From Aliarcobacter cryaerophilus (GTDB lineage: Bacteria > Campylobacterota > Campylobacteria > Campylobacterales > Arcobacteraceae), in NCBI RefSeq assembly GCF_014352935.1, contig NZ_CP060694.1:868001-932000 (forward strand): DNA of 64,000 nucleotides. The letters run 5' to 3'. Position numbers and translations under genes: made by a program. This document shows positions 7,977 to 22,088 of the stretch, in pieces. Position 1 is the stretch's first letter; each line of letters opens with the position of its first letter. The notes below the pieces were generated by a model, which saw only the letters and a list, made by a program, of their open reading frames with translations, was not told where the DNA came from and did no database searches.

Positions 7977-8031
7977 TGGTGCGGATGGCGAGATTTGAAC
8001 TCGCACACACGTAATGCACTACCACCTCAAG
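7977..8031 (-). pseudogene. 3' half of the host tRNA-Leu(GAG), cut off by the element
   Basis: Read on the minus strand this is the anticodon loop onward: the anticodon region CTTGAGGTG, stem strand GGTAG, a long variable arm, T arm GCGAG-TTCAAAT-CTCGC, acceptor strand CATCCGC and ACCA. The 5' half is missing here and lies at 22050-22088. Joined at the 9-bp core, the two halves give an 85-nt tRNA whose acceptor (GCGGATG/CATCCGC) and anticodon (CTACC/GGTAG) stems pair perfectly. This half has no promoter of its own in tRNA orientation and should be non-functional. Confidence 0.92.
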
Positions 8032-8063
8032 ACGGAGATTTTCCCCATTATATAGTAACTATG

Positions 8064-8096
8064 ACTACTACTGTGCAATATGTGTGCAGTAGTAGT
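8064..8096. repeat. Inverted repeat beside the left attachment site
   Basis: ACTACTACTG (8064-8073) pairs with CAGTAGTAGT (8087-8096) around a 13-nt loop. Two TGTGCA words (8072-8077, 8083-8088) lie in the loop and its edges. It sits between the core and the integrase stop codon. It could be a transcription stop for int or an integrase arm-binding site; there is no clear T run. Confidence 0.55.
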
Positions 8097-8099
8097 ATG

Positions 8100-9263
8100 C
8101 TATTTTAGTTGAAAAGTCTTACTTTCAACTTTAACCATCATATTAAAAATATTTTGTTGTTTCTGTGCTTTAAGTTTATCGTGTTCAAGTTTTAAAATTC
8201 TTGGGTCGATATAGTGTTTTTCAGTAATTTTAGAACCTTTTGAATGTCCCATTACTTTTTGAATATCCTCCAAGTTTTCACCACCATAACTCATAACTGA
8301 AGCATAAGACCTTCTCGTTGCATATAATGTTTTATACTCAACATTTATTTGTTTTAATAGTGGTTTTAAATGATAATCTACAATAGTTTTAGATTCTCTA
8401 TAATATCTACCATCTTTATTAATAAAAAGCCACTCATTTGATGGTCTTAATTCATAATAAGTTTTTAGTAGTTTTACTAATTCAGGAAAAAGTTGTATTT
8501 TTCTAAAATGATTTTTATTACTTAATGACTTTTCATTTTGTTCTGAAATTATACCTTTTGTAATACTTCTTTTAAGTGATAGTTTTTCTGTTTCAAAATC
8601 AAAATCACTCCATTTTAAAGCCATACATTCACCTGTTCTTAGTCCTAATTTAAAAGATAATTCCATAAAAACTTTAAACCAACCCTTTGCATTACTTAGA
8701 ATAAGAGATATTTCTTCAGTTGTATAAGCTTGTGTATTTTTTGGAATGTAACATAGGTCAATTGATTTTACACTTCTTGATTGAACTGGATTTTTCTCAA
8801 TTAAATCATTATCATAAGCATAATCAAATATAATATTTAAAAGATTTTTAATTCTTTTAATTCTATCGTTACATACCTCTTTTTTTTGTTTTTCTAATAA
8901 ATTCACAATATCTAATGGTTTAATGTCTTCTAGTGTAAATTGTTTAAAAGTTGGTAATATTCTATTTCTAAAAAGTCTTTCAAGTTCTTTCTGACTTGAT
9001 TTTTGTCTTCTTGAACTTGTAAGTTCCAATACCATATTACCAAACTGCTCAAAGTTATTTGTTACAATAACATTCTTTTTTTTATCTAGGATAGAATGTA
9101 AAACATCTAATGGTTTATTTTTGTTCATCCATTGTTTTGTAGTAGGACTAATTTTTTTACCAGTTGATAATCTATATAGTTTACCATTTATAGAACCGTG
9201 TACATAAATAACATTATTTCTAATTTTAAAGACCCCATCACCTTTTATTAAAATATTACTCAT
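8100..9263 (-). CDS. Tyrosine recombinase (integrase) of the element
   Basis: 387 residues. It catalyses integration and excision by breaking and rejoining the 9-bp core in tRNA-Leu. An N-terminal AP2-like arm-binding part (about 15-60) and a core-binding SAM-like domain (about 70-165) precede the catalytic domain. Active-site residues are arginine 209 in LRTGECMALKW, the arginine of LYATRRSYAS (about 317), histidine 340 in KVMGHSKGS and the nucleophile tyrosine 351 in EKHYID. The first residue of the usual HxxR box is tyrosine instead of histidine, a tolerated variant. Its ATG overlaps the stop of the excisionase-like gene (ATGA). Confidence 0.93.
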   Translation of the reverse strand: MSNILIKGDGVFKIRNNVIYVHGSINGKLYRLSTGKKISPTTKQWMNKNKPLDVLHSILDKKKNVIVTNNFEQFGNMVLELTSSRRQKSSQKELERLFRNRILPTFKQFTLEDIKPLDIVNLLEKQKKEVCNDRIKRIKNLLNIIFDYAYDNDLIEKNPVQSRSVKSIDLCYIPKNTQAYTTEEISLILSNAKGWFKVFMELSFKLGLRTGECMALKWSDFDFETEKLSLKRSITKGIISEQNEKSLSNKNHFRKIQLFPELVKLLKTYYELRPSNEWLFINKDGRYYRESKTIVDYHLKPLLKQINVEYKTLYATRRSYASVMSYGGENLEDIQKVMGHSKGSKITEKHYIDPRILKLEHDKLKAQKQQNIFNMMVKVESKTFQLK

Positions 9264-9517
9264 TTTGAACTCCTCATCAAAATAGTAATTGCTGCTTTTT
9301 GTGATGCATACATTTTACTACCATCTATATAATAATCTACTTCAGGTTCAAAGTTATTTATTAAAAATTGTCTAATTGATTGTCTGCTTTTCCCCGTTGT
9401 TTCAGATAAATAACTTACACTTGCTTTTTTAGGAATTAACATTTTAATCATTCGTTTTAATTCAGATAACATACCTTTTATTTCAAGATATTCTGTTGTG
9501 TTTGATATAGTATTCAT
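9260..9517 (-). CDS. Small DNA-binding protein, probable excisionase-like factor
   Basis: 85 residues. The central part (KKASVSYLSETTGKSRQSIR) reads as a helix-turn-helix resembling MerR/excisionase-type domains, followed by DGSKMYASQKAAITIL, which could form the wing and last helix. The gene is translationally coupled to the integrase, the usual place for a recombination directionality factor or integrase regulator. The assignment rests on position and the helix-turn-helix look; no family signature is decisive. A GGAG-type ribosome-binding site precedes the ATG. Confidence 0.6.
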   Translation of the reverse strand: MNTISNTTEYLEIKGMLSELKRMIKMLIPKKASVSYLSETTGKSRQSIRQFLINNFEPEVDYYIDGSKMYASQKAAITILMRSSK

Positions 9518-9543
9518 TGTATTTTTATCTCCATTCTTATTTT

Positions 9544-10872
9544 TTAAGAAACTTTTTTTATTTCAATTTGTTTAAATTTAAAAATATTCATAGAATTAGT
9601 ATTTTTCTCAACTCTATTTTTGAACATAAGAATTTCAACACATTTTTTTCCAACAGTTCCATTTTTGTAAATCACATCTTTTTTTACATATTTATAATCT
9701 TCATCTTTTGAAAAATTTTCAAGGTGAGGATTGTGATTGTTATAGTAAATAAATGAATATTTACTATCTTTTATTTTATTTAAAAGTTTTCTATGATTAA
9801 AATCATTGATACCATAGTTATATGAACAATTTGTAAAATCTTTTGAAGTAGAAACTTCTTCATAATTAACATAAGGAGGGTCAAATAAAACAAGTGCAGT
9901 AGAATCATTTTTTATTTTATTCATAACTGTTTCATAATTTTTGATTGAAAATTTAATATTTCCTAAGTTGAAGATTTTATTATATATCTCAACTTTGTTA
10001 ATAATTAATGGTATTTGTTTTAATTTATTTTGACAATAACAAAATGTGAATCTATTAGTTTGAGTATCCATATTAAAAGATAACATTCCACCTTGTGTAT
10101 TATGAATTAAATATAAAAAAATAGCTGCTCTTTTTGGATTCATTATTTTTTTAGCTTCAAGATTAGTAAACTCTTTATGAAGATTTTCAAATAATTCTTT
10201 TCCTTCCTCTTTATTTGTAGGATAGAATTTATTATGAGTTCTGTAATAGTTTAATTCAAATGAAGCCAAATGTCTTTGAACTTGCTTTGGATTTTTTTGA
10301 ACTTGTTTATATGCATTAATTAAAGATGGATTTTTATCACTTAATTGTATATCTTCGATTCCATTTTCTATTAATAATGGCAATGAATTATAAACAGAAC
10401 CAAATCCACCTAAAAATGGTTCTGAATATGATTTAAATTGTTTAGGATTTTTTAATAGTATTGAATTAAGAATATTTTGTTGTATATTTTTGTGTTTTTG
10501 TTTTCCTCCTCCATAAGGTAAAAAAACAAATCTTTTAGTATCTGTATCATCTGAAAAAGAATTTGTATTAATAATTTCTTTAGATTTACTTCTTAAAAAA
10601 TTATATAAATATGATTTATCAAAAAAATTATTTAATCTTTTAATTTCTTGGTGTAATGAATAATCTTTACTGTAAAGAACTAAAGATAATGTTCTATATA
10701 TCCAAGCAGAAATATGAGGTTTTTTTATATTTTGTTTTAATATATTTAAGATGATTTCTTTTGATTCATTTTGAACTTTTTTAAAATCTTCTAACATAAT
10801 TTGTTTTTGTTCTGTAATTTGAACTTGTGGAAGTATTTCTAAAACTGATGAACATAAAATTTTCTTTGTCAT
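9544..10872 (-). CDS. D12-class N6-adenine DNA methyltransferase
   Basis: 442 residues. It transfers a methyl group from S-adenosylmethionine to adenine in DNA. The order of motifs fits the Dam/D12 (alpha) class: a glycine-rich segment LPYGGGKQKH at about 118-127, the SAM-binding motif SEPFLGGFGSV at 150-160, LSDKNPSLINAY at 177-188 and the catalytic DPPY at 331-334. The first ~110 residues are an extra helical domain not found in Dam itself. No nuclease gene is next to it, so it may be an orphan modification enzyme. It is read in the same direction as the excisionase-like and integrase genes with a 26-bp gap, and divergently from the WYL gene. Confidence 0.9.
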   Translation of the reverse strand: MTKKILCSSVLEILPQVQITEQKQIMLEDFKKVQNESKEIILNILKQNIKKPHISAWIYRTLSLVLYSKDYSLHQEIKRLNNFFDKSYLYNFLRSKSKEIINTNSFSDDTDTKRFVFLPYGGGKQKHKNIQQNILNSILLKNPKQFKSYSEPFLGGFGSVYNSLPLLIENGIEDIQLSDKNPSLINAYKQVQKNPKQVQRHLASFELNYYRTHNKFYPTNKEEGKELFENLHKEFTNLEAKKIMNPKRAAIFLYLIHNTQGGMLSFNMDTQTNRFTFCYCQNKLKQIPLIINKVEIYNKIFNLGNIKFSIKNYETVMNKIKNDSTALVLFDPPYVNYEEVSTSKDFTNCSYNYGINDFNHRKLLNKIKDSKYSFIYYNNHNPHLENFSKDEDYKYVKKDVIYKNGTVGKKCVEILMFKNRVEKNTNSMNIFKFKQIEIKKVS

Positions 10873-10940
10873 AACCGAATCCTTATTGATTTAAAGTTCA
10901 GAAGTAAAACAAATATAGTTTCTTAAAAGTAGATTTATGT

Positions 10941-10946
10941 TATAAT
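10941..10946 (+). promoter_or_regulatory. -10 element for the WYL-domain gene
   Basis: TATAAT lies 28 bases before the preferred ATG (10969). Transcription would begin near 10953, leaving a short leader with GGGG before that ATG. This argues against the earlier ATG at 10957, which would be almost leaderless. The 84-bp gap is shared with the divergent methylase gene, so both promoters sit there. Confidence 0.6.
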
Positions 10947-10968
10947 TTCCTTTTTTATGGGGTATGCA

Positions 10969-12327
10969 ATGACACAAGAAAGATTTCAAGAATTACTAAA
11001 AAATGATGAATTTAAAAGCTTTAAAAAAAGAGTTGATAGTGGAAAATTTGATAATATTGATTGGTTTAATCTTGAAAATGAAATAGAAAAAATTGCAGAT
11101 AGTGAAAATAAATCTTATGAATATCATAAAATTTATGAGTATTTTCTAGAAAATAGATTTACACAAATCAAAAAATATGTAGTAAAACCAACTGATTTAA
11201 ATATTGTTTTTGATGAGATACTTAATGAACTTATTTGTAATTTAGATACCTTTATAAAAGTAAGTGATTTTTATAATGCAAATTATCAAATTGAATCTAC
11301 TATAAAAAATCAAGTAACTAAAACTATAAATTATTTACTTGACTATAATGTAATTGAAAAAGCTAAAAAAGGTGAGGGTGTTGAGTATAAAACAAATAGT
11401 GAGTTTTGGCACAAACAAGTAAATAATTACATAATAAATGATAGTGAAATACTTCAAGAGTTAAGTCCAATAATTGCTAGTTATATAAAAAATGGAAATA
11501 TAAAAACATATAATATTCAAAAACTTTTTTATAAATTTTCTAAAATTATTGAATATTCAATAATCCCTGCAATTGAACATAATCCATTATTAAATACAGA
11601 GTTTAACATACAGATTGCTTGTGAAAATGAAGAATCAATAGAAATTATTTATAATGAAGAAAAAATTGAAATTACACCATCTAGAATAGTAATTAAAAAT
11701 GATAGTAAAAAATATGTTCAAATAAAAGATGGTAAAAAAACTGACTATATTCCATTAAATGCTATAAAGATTTATGATGAATCAATTTCAAATGTAAATT
11801 CTAAACCAATAAAAAACTCAACTATGTTGTCTATTCCAACAACAAATTTATCAATTAATACAAATTTTGAAACAAGCCAAGAAGAAGAGGAAATTATAGA
11901 AGTAATCTTAGAGTGTGATAGCATAGTTTATGAATATTTTAAAATGAAACCATTAAAAAATATGAAAGTATTTGATACAGAAGATAAATTAAAAGAATTT
12001 CATATAAATTATGAAATAGAACCTAAAAACAATAATTTTTATATAGTTGCACAAGATAGAAAAGAAATGATTATTAGTACTGTTCTACATACTTTACCAC
12101 ACACAAAGATTATTAATAATGATAAATTAAATGATGAGTTGATTTCAAGATTTAAAAAATATGTGCAAGATATTGGATTTAAAATTTGTGATGAGACAAC
12201 ACCACCTACACCAACAAATCCAACCGAACCATCTTCAAAAAATCAAGATAAAAAATCAAATAAATCTATACAAAAAACTAAATATAAACAATTAAATTGG
12301 ATAGATGATGATAATCTAAGCTTCTAA
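10969..12327 (+). CDS. WYL-domain protein, probable transcriptional regulator of the element
   Basis: About 452 residues from ATG 10969 (an upstream ATG at 10957 is less likely). The N-terminal ~190 residues are helical and show no clear helix-turn-helix. A WYL-like domain follows, with IEIIYNEEKIEITPSRIVI, KKYVQIKDGKKTDYIPL and NAIKIYD. A WCX-like domain (about 315-405) follows that, with IEVILECDSIVYEYFKMKPL, a short strand region, then EMIISTVLHTLPHTKII and a final helix. The tail is proline- and lysine-rich. WYL proteins usually regulate DNA repair, mobile-element or defence genes. Its position, divergent from the methylase-excisionase-integrase run, fits a switch for the element. The family call comes from pattern similarity only. 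Confidence 0.55.
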   Translation: MTQERFQELLKNDEFKSFKKRVDSGKFDNIDWFNLENEIEKIADSENKSYEYHKIYEYFLENRFTQIKKYVVKPTDLNIVFDEILNELICNLDTFIKVSDFYNANYQIESTIKNQVTKTINYLLDYNVIEKAKKGEGVEYKTNSEFWHKQVNNYIINDSEILQELSPIIASYIKNGNIKTYNIQKLFYKFSKIIEYSIIPAIEHNPLLNTEFNIQIACENEESIEIIYNEEKIEITPSRIVIKNDSKKYVQIKDGKKTDYIPLNAIKIYDESISNVNSKPIKNSTMLSIPTTNLSINTNFETSQEEEEIIEVILECDSIVYEYFKMKPLKNMKVFDTEDKLKEFHINYEIEPKNNNFYIVAQDRKEMIISTVLHTLPHTKIINNDKLNDELISRFKKYVQDIGFKICDETTPPTPTNPTEPSSKNQDKKSNKSIQKTKYKQLNWIDDDNLSF

Positions 12328-12335
12328 ACATATAT

Positions 12336-13679
12336 TTAGAATTCTATATTTCTTCCAAAATCTTGATTTTTTAATTTTAAATCTTCTTTTTTATGTTTTA
12401 TCTTTTCATTTATGTATTGAATATAATTGTTATAAAGGTCAAGTTTTTTGGAAAATATTTCATCTTTTGTTTTTAAATGTAGATTATTTTCCTTACTTAG
12501 ATACTTTTGTATATCAAGCTTTGAACCTAAAAAATGTTTTATTTCCTGATGTTTGTCTTTATTATAAAATAAAGATACTAATTCAGTTTCAATATTTTTA
12601 ATTTTTCTTTGGAATTTAATTTGTCTATTTTTAATCTCATACTCAATATGTCTTCTTTTTAAAATCTCTTCTTCTTTCCAATAATTCTTATTTCTGCAAA
12701 TAGATGTTATAAATTCCTCTTGAGTAATAACATTATCCTTTAATTTTTGTTTTTGTAGTTTTTTAAAAAAACTGTGTTCAAATTTTGAATATAAACTAAA
12801 ATCAGTTAGTTCTGATGAGGTTCTTTGTTGATAAATCGTTAAATCATTTAAAAATTGATTACTTAAAACACTTTTTGTAAAAGATAGTTTTTTTACTGAT
12901 TCAGAAATTGTTTTTATGTGTTCATTTGCTTCTTGAATTGATTTATGTAATGAATCCATTTCTTTAAATATATTTTCTCTCTGTGCAAAAATATAGTGTT
13001 TTTGAAGCCTTGAAAAATTCATAGTTTCATTTTTATTTTTAAAAATTACTTTTGAGAGTTGATGTAAAGTCGATATTTCATCCTTAATAATTATTGATTT
13101 TAATTTCTCTTGATGATAGTTTTTAATTTTGTCGATTTTTTGTTCTTTCATCTCTGAAAAGGTCTTAATTCCTAATTTTTCCCTTGTTTTTTTTAGTGAA
13201 TAATTTTCTATATAGTTATTCATCAAAGATTTTTTATAATTAATTTTAAATTCTTTAGCTGTTTGTGTTTTATTTGAAACTACCAAGTGGTAATGTTCCA
13301 TTAAAATATCTTCACCATTTTCATTTTTTCTAGTTTTTTCTTCTATTGCAAGCAAATAGTTTTGATTTTTAAAATCTAATTGTATTTTTGAAATAAATGA
13401 TTCTCTTAAAATTAATCTCTCACTATCATTCATTTGTTCCCACCGATTAATTTTACACGGAGATATAATTATATGTTTTAATCGCTCTTCATCTTCAATA
13501 GTTCCATTCTCATAAAGTTTTATTTTTCCTTCTTTTGCTTCTGATTTTAGATAGTTAATTAGTCCAAATTTTGATTGATTTAAATAGTGTTTATCCTCAT
13601 TATTTTGATTTTGAGTGACTTTAACTATTGGTTGTAAAATCTCTTCATTAATTGATTTTTTTAATTTAAATTTTTTCAT
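12336..13679 (-). CDS. Putative relaxase (mobilization protein)
   Basis: 447 residues. A relaxase nicks oriT and leads the single strand into a recipient. The N-terminal ~135 residues show HYLNQSKFGLINYLK (a candidate nucleophile tyrosine near residue 32), then LKHIIISP at 68-75 and the metal-site-like stretch EHYHLVVSN at 128-136. These resemble motifs I to III of MOB relaxases, although the full HxDxxxHxHxxxN pattern is reduced to EHYH. The remainder is helical and highly charged. It ends a co-directional run of four genes that begins beside an IncP-like nick site, and it follows a MobC-like gene; this context is the main support. The exact MOB class is unclear. Confidence 0.62.
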   Translation of the reverse strand: MKKFKLKKSINEEILQPIVKVTQNQNNEDKHYLNQSKFGLINYLKSEAKEGKIKLYENGTIEDEERLKHIIISPCKINRWEQMNDSERLILRESFISKIQLDFKNQNYLLAIEEKTRKNENGEDILMEHYHLVVSNKTQTAKEFKINYKKSLMNNYIENYSLKKTREKLGIKTFSEMKEQKIDKIKNYHQEKLKSIIIKDEISTLHQLSKVIFKNKNETMNFSRLQKHYIFAQRENIFKEMDSLHKSIQEANEHIKTISESVKKLSFTKSVLSNQFLNDLTIYQQRTSSELTDFSLYSKFEHSFFKKLQKQKLKDNVITQEEFITSICRNKNYWKEEEILKRRHIEYEIKNRQIKFQRKIKNIETELVSLFYNKDKHQEIKHFLGSKLDIQKYLSKENNLHLKTKDEIFSKKLDLYNNYIQYINEKIKHKKEDLKLKNQDFGRNIEF

Positions 13680-13691
13680 TTTAAATTTTTC

Positions 13692-14168
13692 CTATTTTAG
13701 AGTTGATTTAATTTTGTTTAAAAAGGAACCCAACAGAATAATTTTCTGTTTGTTGTCCTTTTCTTGATTTACTTTTAAAATAAGTTTGTTGATATTTGGA
13801 ATATTTAAAATTTTAAATAAACTATCATAATCTTTTTCTACATCCCTTTGGAACTTTAACTTTTTATTATTTATAGCTTTTAAGTTTCCAACAAAAATAG
13901 CTGATGAAGTTATATTTTTAATGGTTTCTTCATTGATTTTTGTTTTATCAATAGTATTTTGAGAGATTAATAAATATAGTAAATCTTCAAATTGTCTTAA
14001 GATATGGTTTTTTAAAAAATCTTCATTTGTATATGATTGAACAGATGAGAAGATTTTTTCTTTACAATAAGCAGTTAAAGTCTTATTTGAATTTATGACA
14101 CTTTGTAAAAGAGTGTCATATTCTATATTGGTTAAATAAACTGCAATTTTTTTCTTTTTATTTTCCAT
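13692..14168 (-). CDS. MobC-like ribbon-helix-helix mobilization accessory protein
   Basis: 158 residues. The N-terminus (KKKIAVYLTNIEYDTLLQSV followed by TLTAYCKEKIFSSV) has the strand-helix-helix pattern of relaxosome accessory proteins such as MobC, which bind oriT and help the relaxase open the nick region. The rest is helical. It is 12 bp upstream of the relaxase-like gene in the same direction. Bacterial MobC proteins are often of similar size. The call depends on both pattern and position. Confidence 0.6.
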   Translation of the reverse strand: MENKKKKIAVYLTNIEYDTLLQSVINSNKTLTAYCKEKIFSSVQSYTNEDFLKNHILRQFEDLLYLLISQNTIDKTKINEETIKNITSSAIFVGNLKAINNKKLKFQRDVEKDYDSLFKILNIPNINKLILKVNQEKDNKQKIILLGSFLNKIKSTLK

Positions 14169-14177
14169 TTTATAATC

Positions 14178-14630
14178 CTAGAAACCACTTAAAAAAATAG
14201 AATTGATTGATTGGGAAAATGAGTCACCCATTATTTTTGAATTATTCTTTAAATAGACCATCCAATCATTAATGTTGAAATTATTCATTTTTCCCATATT
14301 TTTAGCGATATTTTCTTTTTCAATTGCAGATAATTTTTTATCTTTAAATAGTTTTTTTAATTTTTCAACTTCATCTTTGTATCTATTAAGTTCGTTTGTT
14401 TTTTTGATATTTAAAAGTTCATTATTAATAGTTTGGAGTTTTAAATGAGATTGTTTTAGAAAAAAATCTTTAGAACTTTTTACACTACTATTTAATGCTT
14501 TTTCTTTTAATTGTTTTGCTTCAGAAAAATTTTCTTTAAATTTCTTTATATCAGCGTATGTAAGTTGCGTATATTTGAATAACTCATAAGTTTCTTCATA
14601 CAATTCGTTTAAATTTTTTATTGATGCCAT
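14178..14630 (-). CDS. Helical, lysine-rich protein of the mobilization operon, unknown function
   Basis: 150 residues, almost entirely helical and charged (EEKAKQLKEKALN-like pattern, then DEVEKLKKLFKDKKLSAIEK) with a coiled-coil character and no membrane segment. It lies between the 101-residue gene and the MobC-like gene with gaps of about 10 bp, so it is surely cotranscribed with them. A role in the relaxosome or in element maintenance is plausible but is inferred only from position. Confidence 0.6.
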   Translation of the reverse strand: MASIKNLNELYEETYELFKYTQLTYADIKKFKENFSEAKQLKEKALNSSVKSSKDFFLKQSHLKLQTINNELLNIKKTNELNRYKDEVEKLKKLFKDKKLSAIEKENIAKNMGKMNNFNINDWMVYLKNNSKIMGDSFSQSINSIFLSGF

Positions 14631-14642
14631 ATTCGTTCCTTT

Positions 14643-14948
14643 TTATTTATTTTTTTTATCTAAATATTTGTCAAAGTCATTATTTAAATTTGATTTTGGT
14701 TTGTTTGGATTCTTTTTTAATAAGTACTGATTTGATAGTATTTTTAAAACTCTAAATTCATCTTTTGTAAAATAAATAGTAAAAGTTTTTTCTTTGATAT
14801 TTAATAGTCGAGTTTTTAGTTTATTTCTAATATTTACGATTATTAGTATATCAATGTTTTTAGAATCTAAAATTTCAACATTATTAAATACTTCACTAAA
14901 CTTTTCAATACTTTTTTTTGTTAGGGTTAAAGAAATAGTTTGATTCAT
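14643..14948 (-). CDS. First gene of the mobilization operon, unknown 101-residue protein
   Basis: A small basic protein with alternating strand-like segments (QTISLTLTKKSIEKF, IDILIIVNIRNKL, TFTIYFTKDEFRVL) and a lysine/asparagine-rich tail. The pattern could fit a small DNA-binding fold but I recognise no family. AAGGAC precedes the ATG by about 6 bases, and a TATAAT lies upstream. It is the gene nearest the oriT-like site. Confidence 0.6.
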   Translation of the reverse strand: MNQTISLTLTKKSIEKFSEVFNNVEILDSKNIDILIIVNIRNKLKTRLLNIKEKTFTIYFTKDEFRVLKILSNQYLLKKNPNKPKSNLNNDFDKYLDKKNK

Positions 14949-14981
14949 ATAAAGTCCTTTTCAAAATACTTAGATATTAGT

Positions 14982-14987
14982 ATTATA
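14982..14987 (-). promoter_or_regulatory. -10 element for the mobilization operon
   Basis: Minus-strand TATAAT about 35 bases upstream of the 14948 start, with AAAGGAC as ribosome-binding site between them. It is the only good -10 match close to this operon and lies between the operon and the oriT-like hairpin. Confidence 0.5.
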
Positions 14988-15063
14988 AAAAATATGATAA
15001 ATATAAAAAATTTTAAATTTATTTGTATATTTTTGATGATTTTACTTTTTAACTAACCCCATA

Positions 15064-15097
15064 CATACCTTGTTGAAACAAGTATGTCTATCCTGCT
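15064..15097 (+). other. Candidate origin of transfer (oriT) with IncP-like nick site
   Basis: An inverted repeat (ACATAC-C-TTGTT at 15064-15075, AACAAGTATGT at 15078-15088, one bulged C) is followed by exactly 8 bases, CTATCCTG, and then C. CTATCCTG^C is the nick-region sequence of the IncP/RP4 plasmid group, where the nick also falls 8 bases after an inverted repeat. The predicted nick is between 15096 and 15097. The site lies 116 bp upstream of the mobilization operon, the usual position. The match is by eye and nicking is untested. Confidence 0.72.
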
Positions 15098-15180
15098 AAT
15101 AAAATTTTTAAAAATTTGCTTTACTTTTCTTCTTGTTTTATTAATATAGGTATATATAAAAAATTAGGGTTGGAGAAAAA

Positions 15181-16230
15181 ATGACAAGAAGAAATTATAA
15201 ACAAAATTCAAAATATTTATATTTACAGAAAAAAATAAAACAATCACAATATGCTAAAAACATTACGTTTATTTCTAAAAATAATATAATTTATACATTA
15301 GAAGATATTAATAATTATAATGAGAAAATTAAATCTTCAATTATTGAAAATGAAATTAATTCTATACATAGAGCTTTAGATAAAAAAATATCTATATTTA
15401 AAACAACAACTATAAAATCAAATTACAATTTATCTACTAACCAATCAAGCAAAGATATTGATAGACAATTAAAAGTTCAGTATAAGCAACTAAAAGATTA
15501 TCACCAATATAAAAATCAATTCAAATTAAATGGTAAAAGATTGGAAAACAAAAGTGTTAAAATTTATGAATTAACAGGAGCTTTAAATCTACATTCAAAT
15601 TCTATTGATATTTTAAAATCCAAAGCAGATTTAGAACACTATATAAAATCAATAATATATGCAAAAAAGAAATTTGATATTGGTAGAATTGAGTTATGTA
15701 TTACATCTTACACATTAAAACATATAAAAAATCTATTTAAAGATTTTAAAATTAGAGTAAATAATAAATATATTACTTTAAATTTAAAATTTGAAAATCA
15801 TATTTATATTATTGAAGAAAAAGGGAAAATAGAGAAGGGTAGCTATATATATTTTACATTACTTGATAAGGAAAAGAATAGCAAAATGAATCTGGTTAGA
15901 TATTTTTATAAAAATATTTTAACAGAACGATATACTAAAAAACCAACTAAAGAACATACGATATTTTCGAAATTAGGCATTAGAATTAAACAGTTTTCAA
16001 AAGATTTTTTTAACCGTAAAGTTCAAAAACATATACTTTATAAAACAAATAACAAGCTATATTTTATGATTAAAAATAAAAAAAATAATATAAAATTATC
16101 TCCAACAAAAAAAGATTTAAAATCATTTTTATTTTATACAGCATCATTATATAGAAAAAGGATTTTATTTTTATTTGTTAAAAAATTTGTTTTTTACTCC
16201 AAAACTAATCAAAATTTGTTCAAATTGTAG
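15181..16230 (+). CDS. Unknown basic 349-residue protein of the element
   Basis: I do not recognise it. It is extremely rich in lysine, asparagine and tyrosine, with no signal peptide. The N-terminal half is helical (NYKQNSKYLYLQKKIKQSQ), the middle has strands (GRIELCITSYTLKHIKNLFK, NHIYIIEEKGKIEKG), and the end is hydrophobic and basic (RILFLFVKKFVFYSKT). The ribosome-binding site GGAG lies 8 bases before the ATG. It is transcribed away from the oriT-like site, opposite to the mobilization operon. It could act in transfer or replication, but nothing in the sequence decides this. Confidence 0.55.
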   Translation: MTRRNYKQNSKYLYLQKKIKQSQYAKNITFISKNNIIYTLEDINNYNEKIKSSIIENEINSIHRALDKKISIFKTTTIKSNYNLSTNQSSKDIDRQLKVQYKQLKDYHQYKNQFKLNGKRLENKSVKIYELTGALNLHSNSIDILKSKADLEHYIKSIIYAKKKFDIGRIELCITSYTLKHIKNLFKDFKIRVNNKYITLNLKFENHIYIIEEKGKIEKGSYIYFTLLDKEKNSKMNLVRYFYKNILTERYTKKPTKEHTIFSKLGIRIKQFSKDFFNRKVQKHILYKTNNKLYFMIKNKKNNIKLSPTKKDLKSFLFYTASLYRKRILFLFVKKFVFYSKTNQNLFKL

Positions 16231-16605
16231 ATTGAAAACTTATGAAAATAGATTTATGAGAAGTATTTTAACAATAATAATATAAATTGTTAAAGTAAAA
16301 TATAAAATTTTCTTTTATTTATTATTAAGAATTATAGGTTAAAAAGATTTTTATAAAAGGTAGATTTATTGAGGAATGTGAGAAAAAAGTTTTTTGATAA
16401 AGATATAATTTTTGAAATTTTGAAAGAGTATTTAATGAGCTTATATTAGGAGAAAAGTAAGATAAATATTTATAAATATATCTAGGAAATCATTAGTGAT
16501 TATTATGATGAAATAACTTATAAAGTTCCTATTTGTGAATATTTTTAATTAATTAACAATTCAGTAATTATAAATTAGCTAGACTTTCGTTTATAAGGAG
16601 TTCAT
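16231..16605. other. 375-bp gene-free stretch with a possible relic reading frame
   Basis: Very AT-rich. One frame from 16372 to 16548 reads plausibly as protein (RNVRKKFFDKDIIFEILKEY, EKSKINIYKYI, EIISDYYDEITYKVPICEYF) but is broken by two in-frame TAG codons. It may be the remains of a lost gene. AAGGAG (about 16597) at the end is the ribosome-binding site of the endonuclease gene. I see no RNA gene or clear terminator here. Confidence 0.35.
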
Positions 16606-18657
16606 ATGCCATTATCAATAACAGATTTTGTTGAAAAAATTATTCCGGGTAATTATTGGTTAACTAAGTCAATGGAGTTTTCAAAAGTAAATTCAAGTGG
16701 TACATTATGGTATTTAAAGAAATGGATTGTTTATTACAAATATTTATTTTTTAAAGATACAATTACTCAAAAAGATTACAATGAAATAAGAGATATATTT
16801 ATTTCATTTATTGATACTTTACCAGATAATGAACATGTTCGTGAAAATGCAGAAAATTTCTTTTTTGAAATTGATATTAGAAACAACGAAAGTTTTTTGA
16901 CATTAAATGATTTTCTTAATAATATACCTAATTTATCAACATCAAATGAATTACAACAGTATAGAATAAGTGCAAAAAAATTTTATTTTATTTATATAAT
17001 GAATGTTGGTGGACAAGCAGGATACAAAAAAGATATTAAACAATGGATTATTGAAAAGAATTCGTATTATAATGTTTTAGAAAAACTCAAAATCAAATTA
17101 TTAATAGATGATAAAGAATCAGATTATAGTATGTTGATTTCAGATTTTCCAGCTTCATTTAGAAATGAAAGACAAATTTTCTTTTATTATGGATTATTTC
17201 ACGGTAATGAAAAAGCTGATTTAAATGGTTTTTACAATTTAACAAATATAGGCAAATTAATTATAAATGCATCTTTCGATGAGTTATTGTTAATATGGGA
17301 ACATCAAAAAATTAAAATGGTTTCACAGTCTCCTATTACTGATATCCAGAATTTAAGTAGAGATATTCCTATAGATTCTGAAAAATTTAATACTTGTTTT
17401 CATCCTTATGTTTCTTTTTTGGAAATTATGGTGAATAATAATACTATTACATTAGATGATTATCAATATGTAATCTCTAGAGTTAGCCAAGAAGATAATT
17501 TAAAAGAGATATCAGATAGTATTTCTGATATTTTAACAGAATCTAAAGCAAAAATTTCGAACTTCAATAGAATTGCAGATAAAAAAATTGATGATTTTAA
17601 AAAGGAATTGGTAAAGTTTATTTTAGGTATTTCTGAAATGAAGAAAGATAAAGGAAGTAATTATTTTTCTTTCTTAACAAAATATGAAAATAAAAAAGTT
17701 AGTGTTTCAGATTCAGACAAAGCAAAATTTGTTTTGAAAAATTATAAATATATAACAAATTATTTAGATGAACAATATTTAGAAAGATACAATCAATTTA
17801 AAAATGAATTGAGAAATAAATATAATTCAAATACAAATAGTCAAGTATATGAAATTGATATTAATTTGAAGTATGAGTGGAGTAAATATATAATTAATCT
17901 AGATAAAAATTTATACTTTGGACTAATTTATATTTTATGTTCATTAAAAATAAGTAAATATGATTATGATTTAGATGAAAATATGTTTGGAAAAGAATTC
18001 AATAATTTTAAATCATTATTGAAATCATTTGGAATAAAGAAGAAACTAGATTTTATTAATTTAATGATGGGAATACAAGATACTTTTAAAGTTGAAGAAA
18101 AGCTTTTAGTTAGTGTTTCTGAGGATGATTATTCAATGACAGATTTTATTAATTTAGAAATTGAAGTTTCAATTGAAAAACTTTCTGAAATATCTAGACG
18201 AGCATCAGTCAATAATGTTATATCAAGAAAAAGAGATACAACATTAATACAAACAATAAAAACATATTATAATAAATACTATTTAACCGATGAAAGATTA
18301 ATTAAATGTGATTGCTGTAAGGAGACTACATTTTTAACGACAAACAATTATCCTTATATAGAATTTCACCATTTAATACCATTTTCAACAGATTATGGTC
18401 CGGACCATTATTTAAATTTATTTGGATTATGTCCAAATTGTCATAGAAAAATGCATTTTATAAGCACTGAAAGTAAAAATGCGTTATACTCTGACTTATC
18501 ATTGAATAATAATATGCAAAAAACATTAAAAAATAGAATAAGCGATTTATTAAGTGAAAACATACTTGAGCCTATTCATTTGGAGTTTTTATTAAAAGAG
18601 AAAATTATATCAAGAGAAGAATATGAGAGATATATGAATGGTGAAATAGCAGTATAA
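16606..18657 (+). CDS. Restriction endonuclease with AlwI-like region and C-terminal HNH nuclease domain
   Basis: 683 residues. The N-terminal ~260 residues resemble AlwI/MlyI-type type II enzymes, especially NLTNIGKLIINASFDELLLI followed by WEHQKIKMVSQSPIT. The C-terminal domain is an HNH nuclease: cysteines at about 568-571 (CDCC), histidines 588-589 in IEFHHLIPFS, asparagine near 604 and CPNCH at 609-613. It probably cuts unmodified foreign DNA at the site protected by the two methylases that follow. Its TAA overlaps the first methylase ATG, and AAGGAG precedes its own ATG. The recognition sequence cannot be read from this sequence. Confidence 0.75.
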   Translation: MPLSITDFVEKIIPGNYWLTKSMEFSKVNSSGTLWYLKKWIVYYKYLFFKDTITQKDYNEIRDIFISFIDTLPDNEHVRENAENFFFEIDIRNNESFLTLNDFLNNIPNLSTSNELQQYRISAKKFYFIYIMNVGGQAGYKKDIKQWIIEKNSYYNVLEKLKIKLLIDDKESDYSMLISDFPASFRNERQIFFYYGLFHGNEKADLNGFYNLTNIGKLIINASFDELLLIWEHQKIKMVSQSPITDIQNLSRDIPIDSEKFNTCFHPYVSFLEIMVNNNTITLDDYQYVISRVSQEDNLKEISDSISDILTESKAKISNFNRIADKKIDDFKKELVKFILGISEMKKDKGSNYFSFLTKYENKKVSVSDSDKAKFVLKNYKYITNYLDEQYLERYNQFKNELRNKYNSNTNSQVYEIDINLKYEWSKYIINLDKNLYFGLIYILCSLKISKYDYDLDENMFGKEFNNFKSLLKSFGIKKKLDFINLMMGIQDTFKVEEKLLVSVSEDDYSMTDFINLEIEVSIEKLSEISRRASVNNVISRKRDTTLIQTIKTYYNKYYLTDERLIKCDCCKETTFLTTNNYPYIEFHHLIPFSTDYGPDHYLNLFGLCPNCHRKMHFISTESKNALYSDLSLNNNMQKTLKNRISDLLSENILEPIHLEFLLKEKIISREEYERYMNGEIAV

Positions 18658-19505
18658 TGGATGTATTAGAATTTGTAGATTTAAAAAAAAATATTAATGT
18701 TGAAGAGTTATATTCAAAAATAATTCATGCAAATAATGTAGATGTATTAAAATTATTACCTGAGAATTCTATAGATTTAATTGTAACAAGTCCTCCATAT
18801 GATGATTTGAGAGATTATGAACAACAAATAATTTGGAATTTTGAGAAATTTAAAGTAATAGTAGATGAATTATATAGAATAATGAAAGATGGTGGAACTA
18901 TAGTTTGGGTAGTTTCAGATAAAACAAAAGAAGGAAATAAATCATTAACAAGTTTTAAACAAGCAATTTATTTTCAAGATATAGGATTTAATATATATGA
19001 TGTGATTATCTATGAAAAAGCTGGTTCTGGACCGCCTCATCCCAAGAGATATTTTAATACATTTGAATATATGTTTATAATTACAAAGGGTAAACCAAAA
19101 ACAGTTAATTTATTAACTGATAAAAAGAATAAATGGGCGGGTGTCGAAACTTATTCTGAGATTACAAGAAGAGAAAAAGATGGTACTTTGACTAATAAGG
19201 GTAAAAAGACTGTTGGCGAATATGGAATTAGAACTAATATTTGGAGATATATTAATGGAAAGAATTTTTCAACAAAAGATAAAATAGCATATAAGCATCC
19301 AGCTATTTTCCCTGAAAAGTTGGCAGAAGACCATATTCTATCTTGGAGTAATGAAGGAGATGTTGTTTTAGATATTTTTGGAGGTAGCGGAACAACAGTG
19401 AAACAGGCAGAACTATTAAATAGGAAATGGATTTATATAGATAAAGTAAGAGAATATTGTGAAATAACTATAAAAAGAATGGAAGATTTAAAGAATGGAA
19501 ACTAA
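18657..19505 (+). CDS. Amino DNA methyltransferase M1 of the restriction-modification operon
   Basis: 282 residues of the beta-type order, catalytic motif first: TSPPY at 44-48 (LIVTSPPYDDLRDYE) and the SAM-binding motif DIFGGSGTT near the C-terminus (FGGSGT 241-246). Such enzymes make N6-methyladenine or N4-methylcytosine; TSPPY alone does not decide. The target-recognition part lies between the motifs (about 110-220). It probably modifies one strand of an asymmetric site, with M2 modifying the other. It overlaps the endonuclease gene by 1 base and M2 by 11 bases. Confidence 0.87.
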   Translation: MDVLEFVDLKKNINVEELYSKIIHANNVDVLKLLPENSIDLIVTSPPYDDLRDYEQQIIWNFEKFKVIVDELYRIMKDGGTIVWVVSDKTKEGNKSLTSFKQAIYFQDIGFNIYDVIIYEKAGSGPPHPKRYFNTFEYMFIITKGKPKTVNLLTDKKNKWAGVETYSEITRREKDGTLTNKGKKTVGEYGIRTNIWRYINGKNFSTKDKIAYKHPAIFPEKLAEDHILSWSNEGDVVLDIFGGSGTTVKQAELLNRKWIYIDKVREYCEITIKRMEDLKNGN

Positions 19506-21102
19506 TTTATTATTTCAAACAATAATTTATGAAGCTCAAGATATTGATTTGTCAATAATTAAAATTAGTCAATTAAAACAAATGTTAAACAGTAGTGGAA
19601 ATCTATTTATTATTGCAAATAATATCTATAAAAATGGAATTATTGAAAATTCTTTTTTTGATTTTATTGAAATAGCGTTAAATAATGAATTAAAATACGT
19701 TAATACAATAGTATTTCCTATTGAGAATTCAAAAGAAGGACTTAATCATAATATAAAATATTTGATTTGGTTCGTTCAAGATTATAATTTAATGACTTTT
19801 AATAAAGATACTATTAGAGAAAAACATATATGGAAAGATGTTGAGTGGGGAAAGCGTAAAAAGAATTATAATGAAAAAGGTAAAGACCCTAGTAATGTTT
19901 GGATACCAACGATTGATGATGGTAAAGGAAAAATTACTAGTCACATAATATTATCAATAGAACAAATTATCAATAGATGTTTAGTATCAACAACTAAGAA
20001 AAATGACCAAATCCTTATTGAAATGGGATACGATTTAAATAAAAAAGATTTAATAGGTGAAAGAAAAATAAAGATTTTAACAAATTCACTTGTAATAAAT
20101 AATAGTAGTTTAGATAATAGTAGTTTAGATAATAGTAGTTTAGATAATAGTAGTTTAGATAATAGTAGTTTAGATAATAGTAGTTTAGATAATAGTAGTT
20201 TAGATAATAGTAGTTTAGATAATAGTAGTTTAGATAATAGTAGTTTAGATAATAGTAGTTTAGATAATAGTAGTTTAGATAATAGTAGTACTGCAGATGT
20301 GTATTTTAAAAGTTCTGAATCTATGAAAGAAATTAAAGATAATAGTGTTTCCTTAATGGTCACATCTCCACCTTATTGGGATTTAAAGAACTATTTTAAA
20401 AAAGGTCAAATAGGACAAGAAAACTATGAAGATTATTTAAATCGATTGGATAGTATTTGGAAAGAAACATTTAGAGTTTTAAAATTAGATGGGAGTATGT
20501 GGATTAATATTAATACAAGAACAAAAGATAAAAAGCCTATTTTGATTCCTCATGATATTATTAAGAGGTGTAAAAAGATAGGTTTTAAATTAAAAGATAT
20601 AATTATTTGGCATAAATCATCAGGAATTCCAACTCATAAAAATAATTTAGTAGACAAGTATGAATATTTTTTATGGTTTAGTAAAACAAACAAAACAAAT
20701 CTTAATATTAATAATATAAAAGAGTTAAATGATTATAAAAATAATTATTTGAATAATGGATTAATTTGGAATATAAATAGAAAAGCAGGTAGCGTAGGAA
20801 AAGATTTCATTCATCCAGCAATATATCCTACAGAATTAATTGATAGAGTTATAAAATTAATGACAATTGAAAATGATATTGTAATTGACCCTTTTCTTGG
20901 ATCTGGTACATCAATGTTGTCATCTTTAAAGAACAATAGAAATTTTATTGGATATGAGTATAATGAAGATTTCTTAGATTTAATGAATTATAGAATTAAT
21001 GAAGATAAATTGAATAGTAAAAACTCAATAAATTTTCATTTTAGTAAAAGAATCATAAATAAAAACAAAGTATTTAGGAAAGATAGTATTGATGGAAACT
21101 GA
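19495..21102 (+). CDS. DNA methyltransferase M2: degenerate methylase-like half joined by NSSLD repeats to an intact methylase
   Basis: 535 residues. The C-terminal half is a complete beta-type methylase, with TSPPYWDLKNYF at 290-301 and DPFLGSGTS at about 465-473. The N-terminal half (1-200) follows the same domain order, with KYLIWFVQDYN matching EYFLWFSKTNK and SHIILSIEQIINR matching HPAIYPTELIDR. Its own catalytic SPPY and SAM-binding GxGT motifs are absent. The middle (203-262) is twelve tandem NSSLD units plus NSS. I read it as a fusion in which the first methylase lost activity but may still help target recognition. It overlaps M1 by 11 bases and the next gene by 11 bases. Confidence 0.83.
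   Translation: METNLLFQTIIYEAQDIDLSIIKISQLKQMLNSSGNLFIIANNIYKNGIIENSFFDFIEIALNNELKYVNTIVFPIENSKEGLNHNIKYLIWFVQDYNLMTFNKDTIREKHIWKDVEWGKRKKNYNEKGKDPSNVWIPTIDDGKGKITSHIILSIEQIINRCLVSTTKKNDQILIEMGYDLNKKDLIGERKIKILTNSLVINNSSLDNSSLDNSSLDNSSLDNSSLDNSSLDNSSLDNSSLDNSSLDNSSLDNSSLDNSSLDNSSTADVYFKSSESMKEIKDNSVSLMVTSPPYWDLKNYFKKGQIGQENYEDYLNRLDSIWKETFRVLKLDGSMWININTRTKDKKPILIPHDIIKRCKKIGFKLKDIIIWHKSSGIPTHKNNLVDKYEYFLWFSKTNKTNLNINNIKELNDYKNNYLNNGLIWNINRKAGSVGKDFIHPAIYPTELIDRVIKLMTIENDIVIDPFLGSGTSMLSSLKNNRNFIGYEYNEDFLDLMNYRINEDKLNSKNSINFHFSKRIINKNKVFRKDSIDGN
20101..20289 (+). repeat. Twelve perfect 15-bp tandem repeats inside methylase M2
   Basis: The unit AATAGTAGTTTAGAT occurs 12 times without a mismatch (20101-20280), followed by a 9-base partial copy. 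As 15 is a multiple of three, each unit adds NSSLD and copy changes keep the frame. Perfect identity over 180 bp suggests recent or ongoing slippage. The other strand also reads open (LLLSK units) but that is only a shadow. Confidence 0.97.
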
Positions 21103-21499
21103 AGAATTGAGATTAAAAATATATGAGAGGTTAGGATTAGAGATTGGTAGTCTAAAATCTGAAAGTGGTAATGATTGGGTTCGTGCAGAAAAAGAAATTT
21201 TAGAGGAATATAGAAATACGATATTTGAAAAGCTAAAAGAACTAAATTCTATTGAATATTTAAACATAAATAAAGATAGTGATGAATATTGTTTAGTTAT
21301 AAATTCTAATTCTTTATTATTGCAAAATGCTAAAGTAATTATTGCAAAAAGAGATGATTTAGATAAAGTAGATATTAACAAATTAATTTTAGATGGAAAT
21401 AAAGATATTCTTATCAATTTAACAAAATATCAAAAATTATCATCAGATGAAATAGATTTAATAATTCCCAAAAGTACATATTTAGTAAAAAAAATTTAA
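21092..21499 (+). CDS. Small unknown protein ending the restriction-modification operon; frame may continue to 21612
   Basis: 135 residues from ATG 21092 (TTG 21089 just before it is unlikely); AGGAA lies 11 bases upstream. It reads as a soluble alpha/beta protein (ELRLKIYERLGLEIGSLKSE, EEYRNTIFEKLKELNSIEYL, ILINLTKYQKLSSDEIDLII). I recognise no family. The frame stops just after an A8 run. In the -1 frame the sequence continues without a stop for about 37 codons (NLIENQILTSEQKEKLV, ESNLDYSELLNKFVTMIS), which looks like genuine coding sequence. The functional protein may therefore be about 172 residues. Being cotranscribed with the methylases, it may regulate or assist the system. Confidence 0.6.
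   Translation: METEELRLKIYERLGLEIGSLKSESGNDWVRAEKEILEEYRNTIFEKLKELNSIEYLNINKDSDEYCLVINSNSLLLQNAKVIIAKRDDLDKVDINKLILDGNKDILINLTKYQKLSSDEIDLIIPKSTYLVKKI
21487..21494 (+). other. A8 run at a probable frameshift site
   Basis: Eight A lie in the context GTA AAA AAA ATT TAA, so the heptamer A AAA AAA is in the right phase for -1 ribosomal slippage. One added A in the DNA, or transcript slippage, would give the same longer protein. A homopolymer of this length can also vary between cells. Confidence 0.6.
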
Positions 21500-21612
21500 T
21501 TGAAAATCAAATACTTACATCAGAGCAAAAAGAAAAACTAGTATTATTGATGAAAGAAAGTAATCTTGATTATTCAGAATTGTTAAATAAATTTGTTACA
21601 ATGATTTCGTAA

Positions 21613-21933
21613 ATAAATTTAATAATGAGTTGTACATTTTATATAATAAAATTACTTGTATCATAATAATACTAAATTTATACGGAATTAATAAGTTTTA
21701 TTTATTAGTTCTAATATAAAATTTAACTTAAGAAAAAGTGCACCAGAAATTATGAAATTTTTATTAAATTGTGCACTAAAGTGTGCACTAAAGTTAACAA
21801 GATTAATACATTTTGACAATATAAAATTAAAATAAGATTTTGAAAGTAAGAAGAATTATATAAAAATCACAAGCAACAATTACATTTTTCTTTTAAAAAG
21901 AAAATTATAAATTAAATTAGAATACCCATAAAA
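21613..21933. other. 321-bp gene-free right end of the element
   Basis: No gene is seen. It contains three GTGCAC words (21738, 21771, 21783), the last two inside the tandem 12-mer GTGCACTAAAGT. The rest is plain AT-rich sequence leading up to the intact tRNA-Leu. Confidence 0.6.
21771..21794. repeat. Tandem 12-bp repeat GTGCACTAAAGT, possible integrase arm sites
   Basis: Two perfect adjacent copies (21771-21782, 21783-21794), each with the palindrome GTGCAC; a third GTGCAC lies at 21738-21743. Similar TGTGCA words occur at the left end (8072, 8083). Words shared by both ends near the cores are what integrase arm-type or excisionase sites would look like. This role is inferred. Confidence 0.5.
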
Positions 21934-22017
21934 TGGTGCGGATAACTGGATTTGAACCAGCACAAGTTTCCTTATGAGCACCTCAAGCCCACGTGTCTAC
22001 CATTCCACCATATCCGC
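21934..22017 (-). tRNA. Intact tRNA-Leu(GAG) carried by the element
   Basis: 84 nt including CCA. The acceptor stem GCGGATA/TATCCGC pairs perfectly. The anticodon stem TGGGC/GCTCA has one G-U pair, the loop TTGAGGT gives anticodon GAG, and there is a long variable arm and the T arm CTGG-TTCAAAT-CCAG. It differs clearly from the split host gene in the anticodon stem, variable arm and T stem, so it was brought in and is not a duplicate. It lies 32 bp downstream of the host 5' half on the same strand and can be read from the old promoter. It also contains the 9-bp core (21979-21987). Confidence 0.95.
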
Positions 22018-22049
22018 AATTCTAAATTTAACACCACGCTTTTAAAAGT

Positions 22050-22088
22050 CACCTCAAGGTAGCGTGTCTACCGTTCCACCACATCCGC
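22050..22088 (-). pseudogene. 5' half of the host tRNA-Leu(GAG)
   Basis: On the minus strand: acceptor GCGGATG, D arm, stem strand CTACC and loop TTGAGGT up to the core CACCTCAAG (22050-22058). The sequence then changes to element DNA. Its partner half is at 7977-8031. It keeps the native upstream region and so may still be transcribed as a 5' fragment ahead of the intact tRNA. Confidence 0.92.

Follow-up and report, generated by a model that had tools for sequence, protein, structure and literature searches.

A hairpin followed by an IncP-type nick word, on the forward strand at 15063-15096 of the window (the whole stretch of DNA analysed here, 64,000 nucleotides), is very probably the origin of transfer (oriT) of a helper-dependent integrative mobilizable element. 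Our main interpretation, and the best reading of the findings described below, is that the oriT has a MOBP/IncP layout and belongs to an element that depends on a helper for its movement. The element would need the conjugation machinery of that helper, while nicking would probably be carried out by its own putative relaxase, P0001, which is encoded in the mobilization (mob) operon next to the site.

Hairpin and nick region

The site and its conserved flank consist of the following parts:

15063-15087, + strand: oriT inverted repeat/hairpin, ACATAC(c)TTGT-TGAA-ACAAGTATGT, 25 nt with one bulged C
15088-15096, + strand: nick region, CTATCCTG followed by C, predicted nic at 15095/15096
15097-15123, no strand assigned: flank TAATA-AAATTTTTAAAAATTT, a palindromic A+T stretch common to the window and the related genome G244

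The + strand at 15063-15096 reads ACATACCTTGTTGAAACAAGTATGT, then CTATCCTG, then C. A hairpin with one bulge, the nick word and a C had been described in the sequence-only reading and are present as described; the span given there was 15064-15097, and the hairpin starts one base further left, at 15063. The hairpin folds as 6 bp, the bulged C, 4 bp and a 4-nt loop, with a stability of -5.2 kcal/mol using DNA parameters (z = -3.9), and none of 200 shuffled sequences folded as well. The last base of its 3' arm is 15087, leaving 8 nt to the predicted nick at 15095/15096, in agreement with the spacing claimed for it; the hairpin-to-nick spacing of RP4 is exactly 8 nt. The word TATCCTGC at 15089-15096 fits the MOBP/IncP nick consensus (C/T)ATCCTG(C/T). 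As in other oriTs of this type, the inverted repeat lies directly 5' of the nick region, and the site adjoins relaxase and accessory genes and is conserved together with them. The conserved flank TAATA-AAATTTTTAAAAATTT is a possible candidate for an accessory-protein site.

The 7-mer TATCCTG occurs at about chance frequency in the window (6 observed versus 5.1 expected). When random positions were sampled, 17 out of 2500 (0.7%) had a comparably stable hairpin 7-9 nt to their 5' side. The window has five YATCCTGY words, and the one at 15089-15096 alone has such a hairpin, a coincidence of about 3% for the window. Taken alone, the combination of hairpin and nick word in the window is suggestive; conservation in relatives makes the case decisive.

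Seven loci with P0001 homologues were compared, namely the window and loci in genomes G244, G016, G454, G646, G682 and G694. In each of the seven, the intergenic region preceding the operon holds a single TCCTGCT, which lies on the other strand than the operon; its distance to the operon start is 144-157 nt at six loci and 206 nt at one. It corresponds to window positions 15091-15097 and is invariant in the alignment of the seven loci. The expected number of occurrences per intergenic region is 0.001-0.02, and the naive product of 2e-15 is overstated because the loci are related. Next to the word, a hairpin better than those of shuffled sequences was detected in five loci (window, G454, G646, G682 and G694), and was indistinct by the same comparison in G244 and G016. 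The arms of the hairpin vary in sequence between loci but keep their pairing, as with ACATAC/GTATGT in the window and TATTA/TAATA in G454. This placement of TCCTGCT at 7/7 loci, with the hairpin at 5/7, supports the proposed oriT of MOBP/IncP layout.

Identity of the nick word with that of RP4/IncP, as originally claimed, holds for the window and G244 but does not extend to the wider family, where the other five loci have TTCCTG instead of ATCCTG. The search of relatives for hairpin plus TATCCTG that had been suggested succeeded for the TCCTGCT core and for most hairpins, but found ATCCTG in only two of the seven loci. As judged from the alignment, the exact RP4 word is a trait of the window/G244 sub-branch, and the whole family keeps TCCTG/CT (the slash marks the predicted nick). 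GTCTATCCTGCTAATA is intact in both members of this sub-branch despite diverged intergenic flanks and a relaxase identity of 54%. Among 104 genomes of the family, the 15-mer TCTATCCTGCTAATA was found in only two, the window genome and G244, and these are also the only two with the relaxase homologue.

Similar arrangements are known from other systems. The oriT/TraI system of RP4 (IncP-alpha, MOBP) has the same nick word, CTATCCTG followed by C (RP4 oligonucleotide ...CTTCACCTATCCTGCCCGG; PMC3772185), and an inverted repeat directly 5' of it. RP4 differs in having no sequence in common with the window outside the nick word, and the window has a relaxase unmatched by PF03432 in an element without Tra/Trb genes. 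VirD2 of tfs4, from Helicobacter pylori, cleaves TATCCTGC in the intergenic region that precedes its own gene, and an inverted repeat adjoins the nicked word (PMC3772185). This relaxase likewise falls outside the classical MOB clades, and H. pylori probably belongs to the same phylum as the window. However, tfs4 is a self-transmissible island whereas the window element has no T4SS, and VirD2 has conventional motifs whereas motif III of P0001 resembles E...HxH. Bacteroides NBU1-type elements, as listed in a table of PMC5704250, resemble the window element in tRNA-Leu integration, a MobP-type mobilization module and helper dependence. They belong to another phylum, the similarity to MbpA is weak, and the window insertion differs in that it breaks the tRNA in its anticodon arm and in that the element brings a whole tRNA-Leu with it.

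The mobilizable element and its genes

The site lies within an element with the following features:

8023-22049, no strand assigned: integrative mobilizable element, 14,027 bp, with the 9-bp core CACCTCAAG at 8023 and 22050
8100-9263, - strand: tyrosine integrase, encoded at the left end
12336-13679, - strand: P0001, putative relaxase, 447 aa, with relaxase-like motifs and a coiled-coil C-terminal part
13692-14168, - strand: P0002, MobC/NikA-like RHH accessory protein
14178-14630, - strand: P0003, small operon protein, 150 aa, with a conserved counterpart in G244 alone (36%)
14643-14948, - strand: P0004, small operon protein, 101 aa, encoded at the head of the operon, conserved in G244 (37.5%)
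15181-16230, + strand: P0005, 349 aa, encoded nearest to the oriT on its predicted leading side
16606-21102, + strand: leading-side cargo, an HNH nuclease (type IV REase-like) and two N6/N4 DNA methyltransferases

With an integrase, a precise insertion site, and mob genes and an oriT in the absence of a T4SS, the 8023-22049 segment is, by its sequence, an integrative mobilizable element. It splits a tRNA-Leu(gag) in the anticodon arm (7977-8031 and 22050-22088), and joining the flanks at 22050 restores an 85-nt tRNA-Leu. A right end at 21979, inside the tRNA, was rejected, as flanks joined there yielded no tRNA. A complete tRNA-Leu(gag) lies within the element itself, at 21934-22017, so that a whole replacement is carried as opposed to the usual 3' fragment alone. 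In the congener G198 the site is empty, with continuous flanks (88% identity) around an intact tRNA-Leu, and G244 has a syntenic element inserted in tRNA-Arg.

No T4SS or coupling protein was recognised among the scanned ORFs of the element, and VirB4 is absent from the whole genome, consistent with the earlier description of an element lacking conjugation machinery. VirB4 was detected in 9 of the 104 family genomes, so possible helpers exist in relatives.

The site had also been placed just upstream of a mobilization operon, and indeed the operon runs leftward from 14948 to 12336, away from the site, in the order P0004-P0003-P0002-P0001. The G244 orthologue of P0002 scored against the NikA-like family of Pfam with an E-value of 9.6e-5 and 22.9 bits, below the cut-off of 27. 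P0005 is 57% identical to a 477-aa protein of G244 (L006 15412-16845) and about 130 aa shorter at the C-terminus, and is perhaps truncated in the window. P0005 had no family match, and tblastn of its homologue against plasmids and phages gave no match. P0007 (456 aa, 10957-12327), also without a family match, is conserved beside the relaxase in the G244 and G454 elements; a Dam-like methyltransferase (9544-10872) is another gene that these elements have kept. An ArdC-like antirestriction protein is encoded just downstream of the relaxase in the G244 element (L006 11585-12616). A Rep3 replication initiator lies beside the oriT-like site in the G454 locus (L013 11171-12142), suggesting that this locus is an integrated plasmid or plasmid-like element. 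One of the two cargo methyltransferases of the window bears pentapeptide-like repeats.

By analogy with RP4 and H. pylori tfs4 VirD2, we infer nicking by P0001 with MobC and a direction of transfer. The integrase would excise the element as a circle, and MobC (P0002) and P0001 would come together at the hairpin. The predicted cut by P0001, made via Y43, falls on the + strand between CTATCCTG and C, at 15095/15096, and P0001 would stay attached to the 5' end at 15096. The coupling protein and T4SS of a helper would then export the strand. Transfer would run to the right, so that P0005 and the restriction/methylation genes would be the first to enter and the mob genes would follow at the end.

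A divergent putative relaxase

P0001 has three motif-like stretches: LINYL (Y43, motif I-like), KHIIISP (H69-S73-P74) and E113...HYHLVVS (H129-x-H131). The arrangement of Y43, H69 and E113...H129/H131 resembles relaxase motifs I-III. Homologues were found in six other genomes of the order, with identities of 54% (G244), 26% (G016) and down to about 21%; Y43, H129 and H131 are invariant in the seven homologues, and E113 is also present in all of them. A match in G073 (L009) was rejected as a P0001 relative because it is a methyltransferase. Scans of genome contigs and viral contigs with P0001 and alignment A3 gave no match, nor did tblastn of the relaxases against plasmids and phages.

No family in Pfam or NCBIfam and no relaxase in the PDB was matched by P0001, and the PF03432 Relaxase profile had no match in P0001, its relatives or the whole genome. 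A profile of the P0001 family was compared with 15 PF03432 relaxases of the same order using hhalign, and the similarity was weak, with a best probability of 19%. At these weak scores the HxH region aligned in register in 14 of the 15, and the top three scores were those of RP4-like relaxases. Control scores, from reversed relaxases and unrelated window proteins, were mostly lower, with some overlap below the top three. In the gapped alignments, also weakly scored, the first motif-III His position falls on E113. A model of the N-terminal part (pLDDT 79, pTM 0.71) would place E113 and H129 on adjacent strands (108-118/124-135). Foldseek with this model found no relaxase in the PDB, and matches in the structure search with the full-length model were swamped by coiled coils. 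The metal site of P0001 appears to be E-H-H (E113, H129 and H131) and probably not HHH.

We regard the cognate relaxase as a putative, highly divergent one that is not recognisable as an RP4 TraI/PF03432 protein, and PF03432/MOBP membership is not claimed. We give roughly even chances to an undescribed relaxase family of this order whose members combine an E-H-H metal site with a long coiled-coil tail, cut TCCTG/CT oriTs beside hairpins and escape present profiles.

Alternative explanations and significance

Integrative mobilizable elements can replicate by rolling circle, and the site could double as, or mainly be, the double-strand origin from which the excised circle replicates in this way; P0001 would then be the initiator and mobilization secondary. 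This would fit the common chemistry of relaxases and rolling-circle initiators, as outlined in a passage of PMC4814116, and nothing else in the element was recognised as a replication initiator. However, conjugative processing is favoured both by the MobC/NikA-like partner and by the IncP-type nick word, and a separate Rep3 initiator lies beside the copy of the site in the G454 locus; we consider a replication origin unlikely. A little less probable is that the oriT is real and meant for the RP4-like relaxase of a helper acting in trans, a form of oriT mimicry in which nicking is not the task of P0001. Both RP4 TraI and H. pylori VirD2 cut at ATCCTG (PMC3772185), and P0001 goes unrecognised by profile libraries, yet across the 104 genomes the 15-mer goes with the P0001 homologue alone, and the site is found beside P0001 homologues in 7/7 loci.

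Palindromes also occur between divergent genes, here the mob operon and P0005, and MobC-type RHH proteins can autoregulate (PMC4175270), so that the site might be a transcriptional operator or terminator resembling an oriT. The conserved feature is an asymmetric word on one fixed strand, unlike a symmetric operator, and the hairpin has no T-run after it, making this reading very improbable. A chance juxtaposition of hairpin and 7-mer would agree with the lack of enrichment of TATCCTG in the window, but is effectively refuted by the conservation and placement of the site in seven loci and its exclusive co-occurrence with the relaxase.

As an oriT of a helper-dependent element, the site is a further IncP-like one, and the more unusual aspect is the relaxase, which is divergent, unmatched by profiles and probably equipped with an E-H-H site. 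If real, the E-H-H site would be a new metal-site variant among HUH relaxases. The restriction/methylation cargo would sit on the leading side of transfer. Callers of mobilizable elements depend on relaxase profiles, and islands of the type found in the window look immobile because their relaxase is missed by Pfam and NCBIfam; the oriT word offers a direct means of finding them. Should the undescribed relaxase family prove true, there would be a class of mobilizable islands that are currently annotated as immobile.
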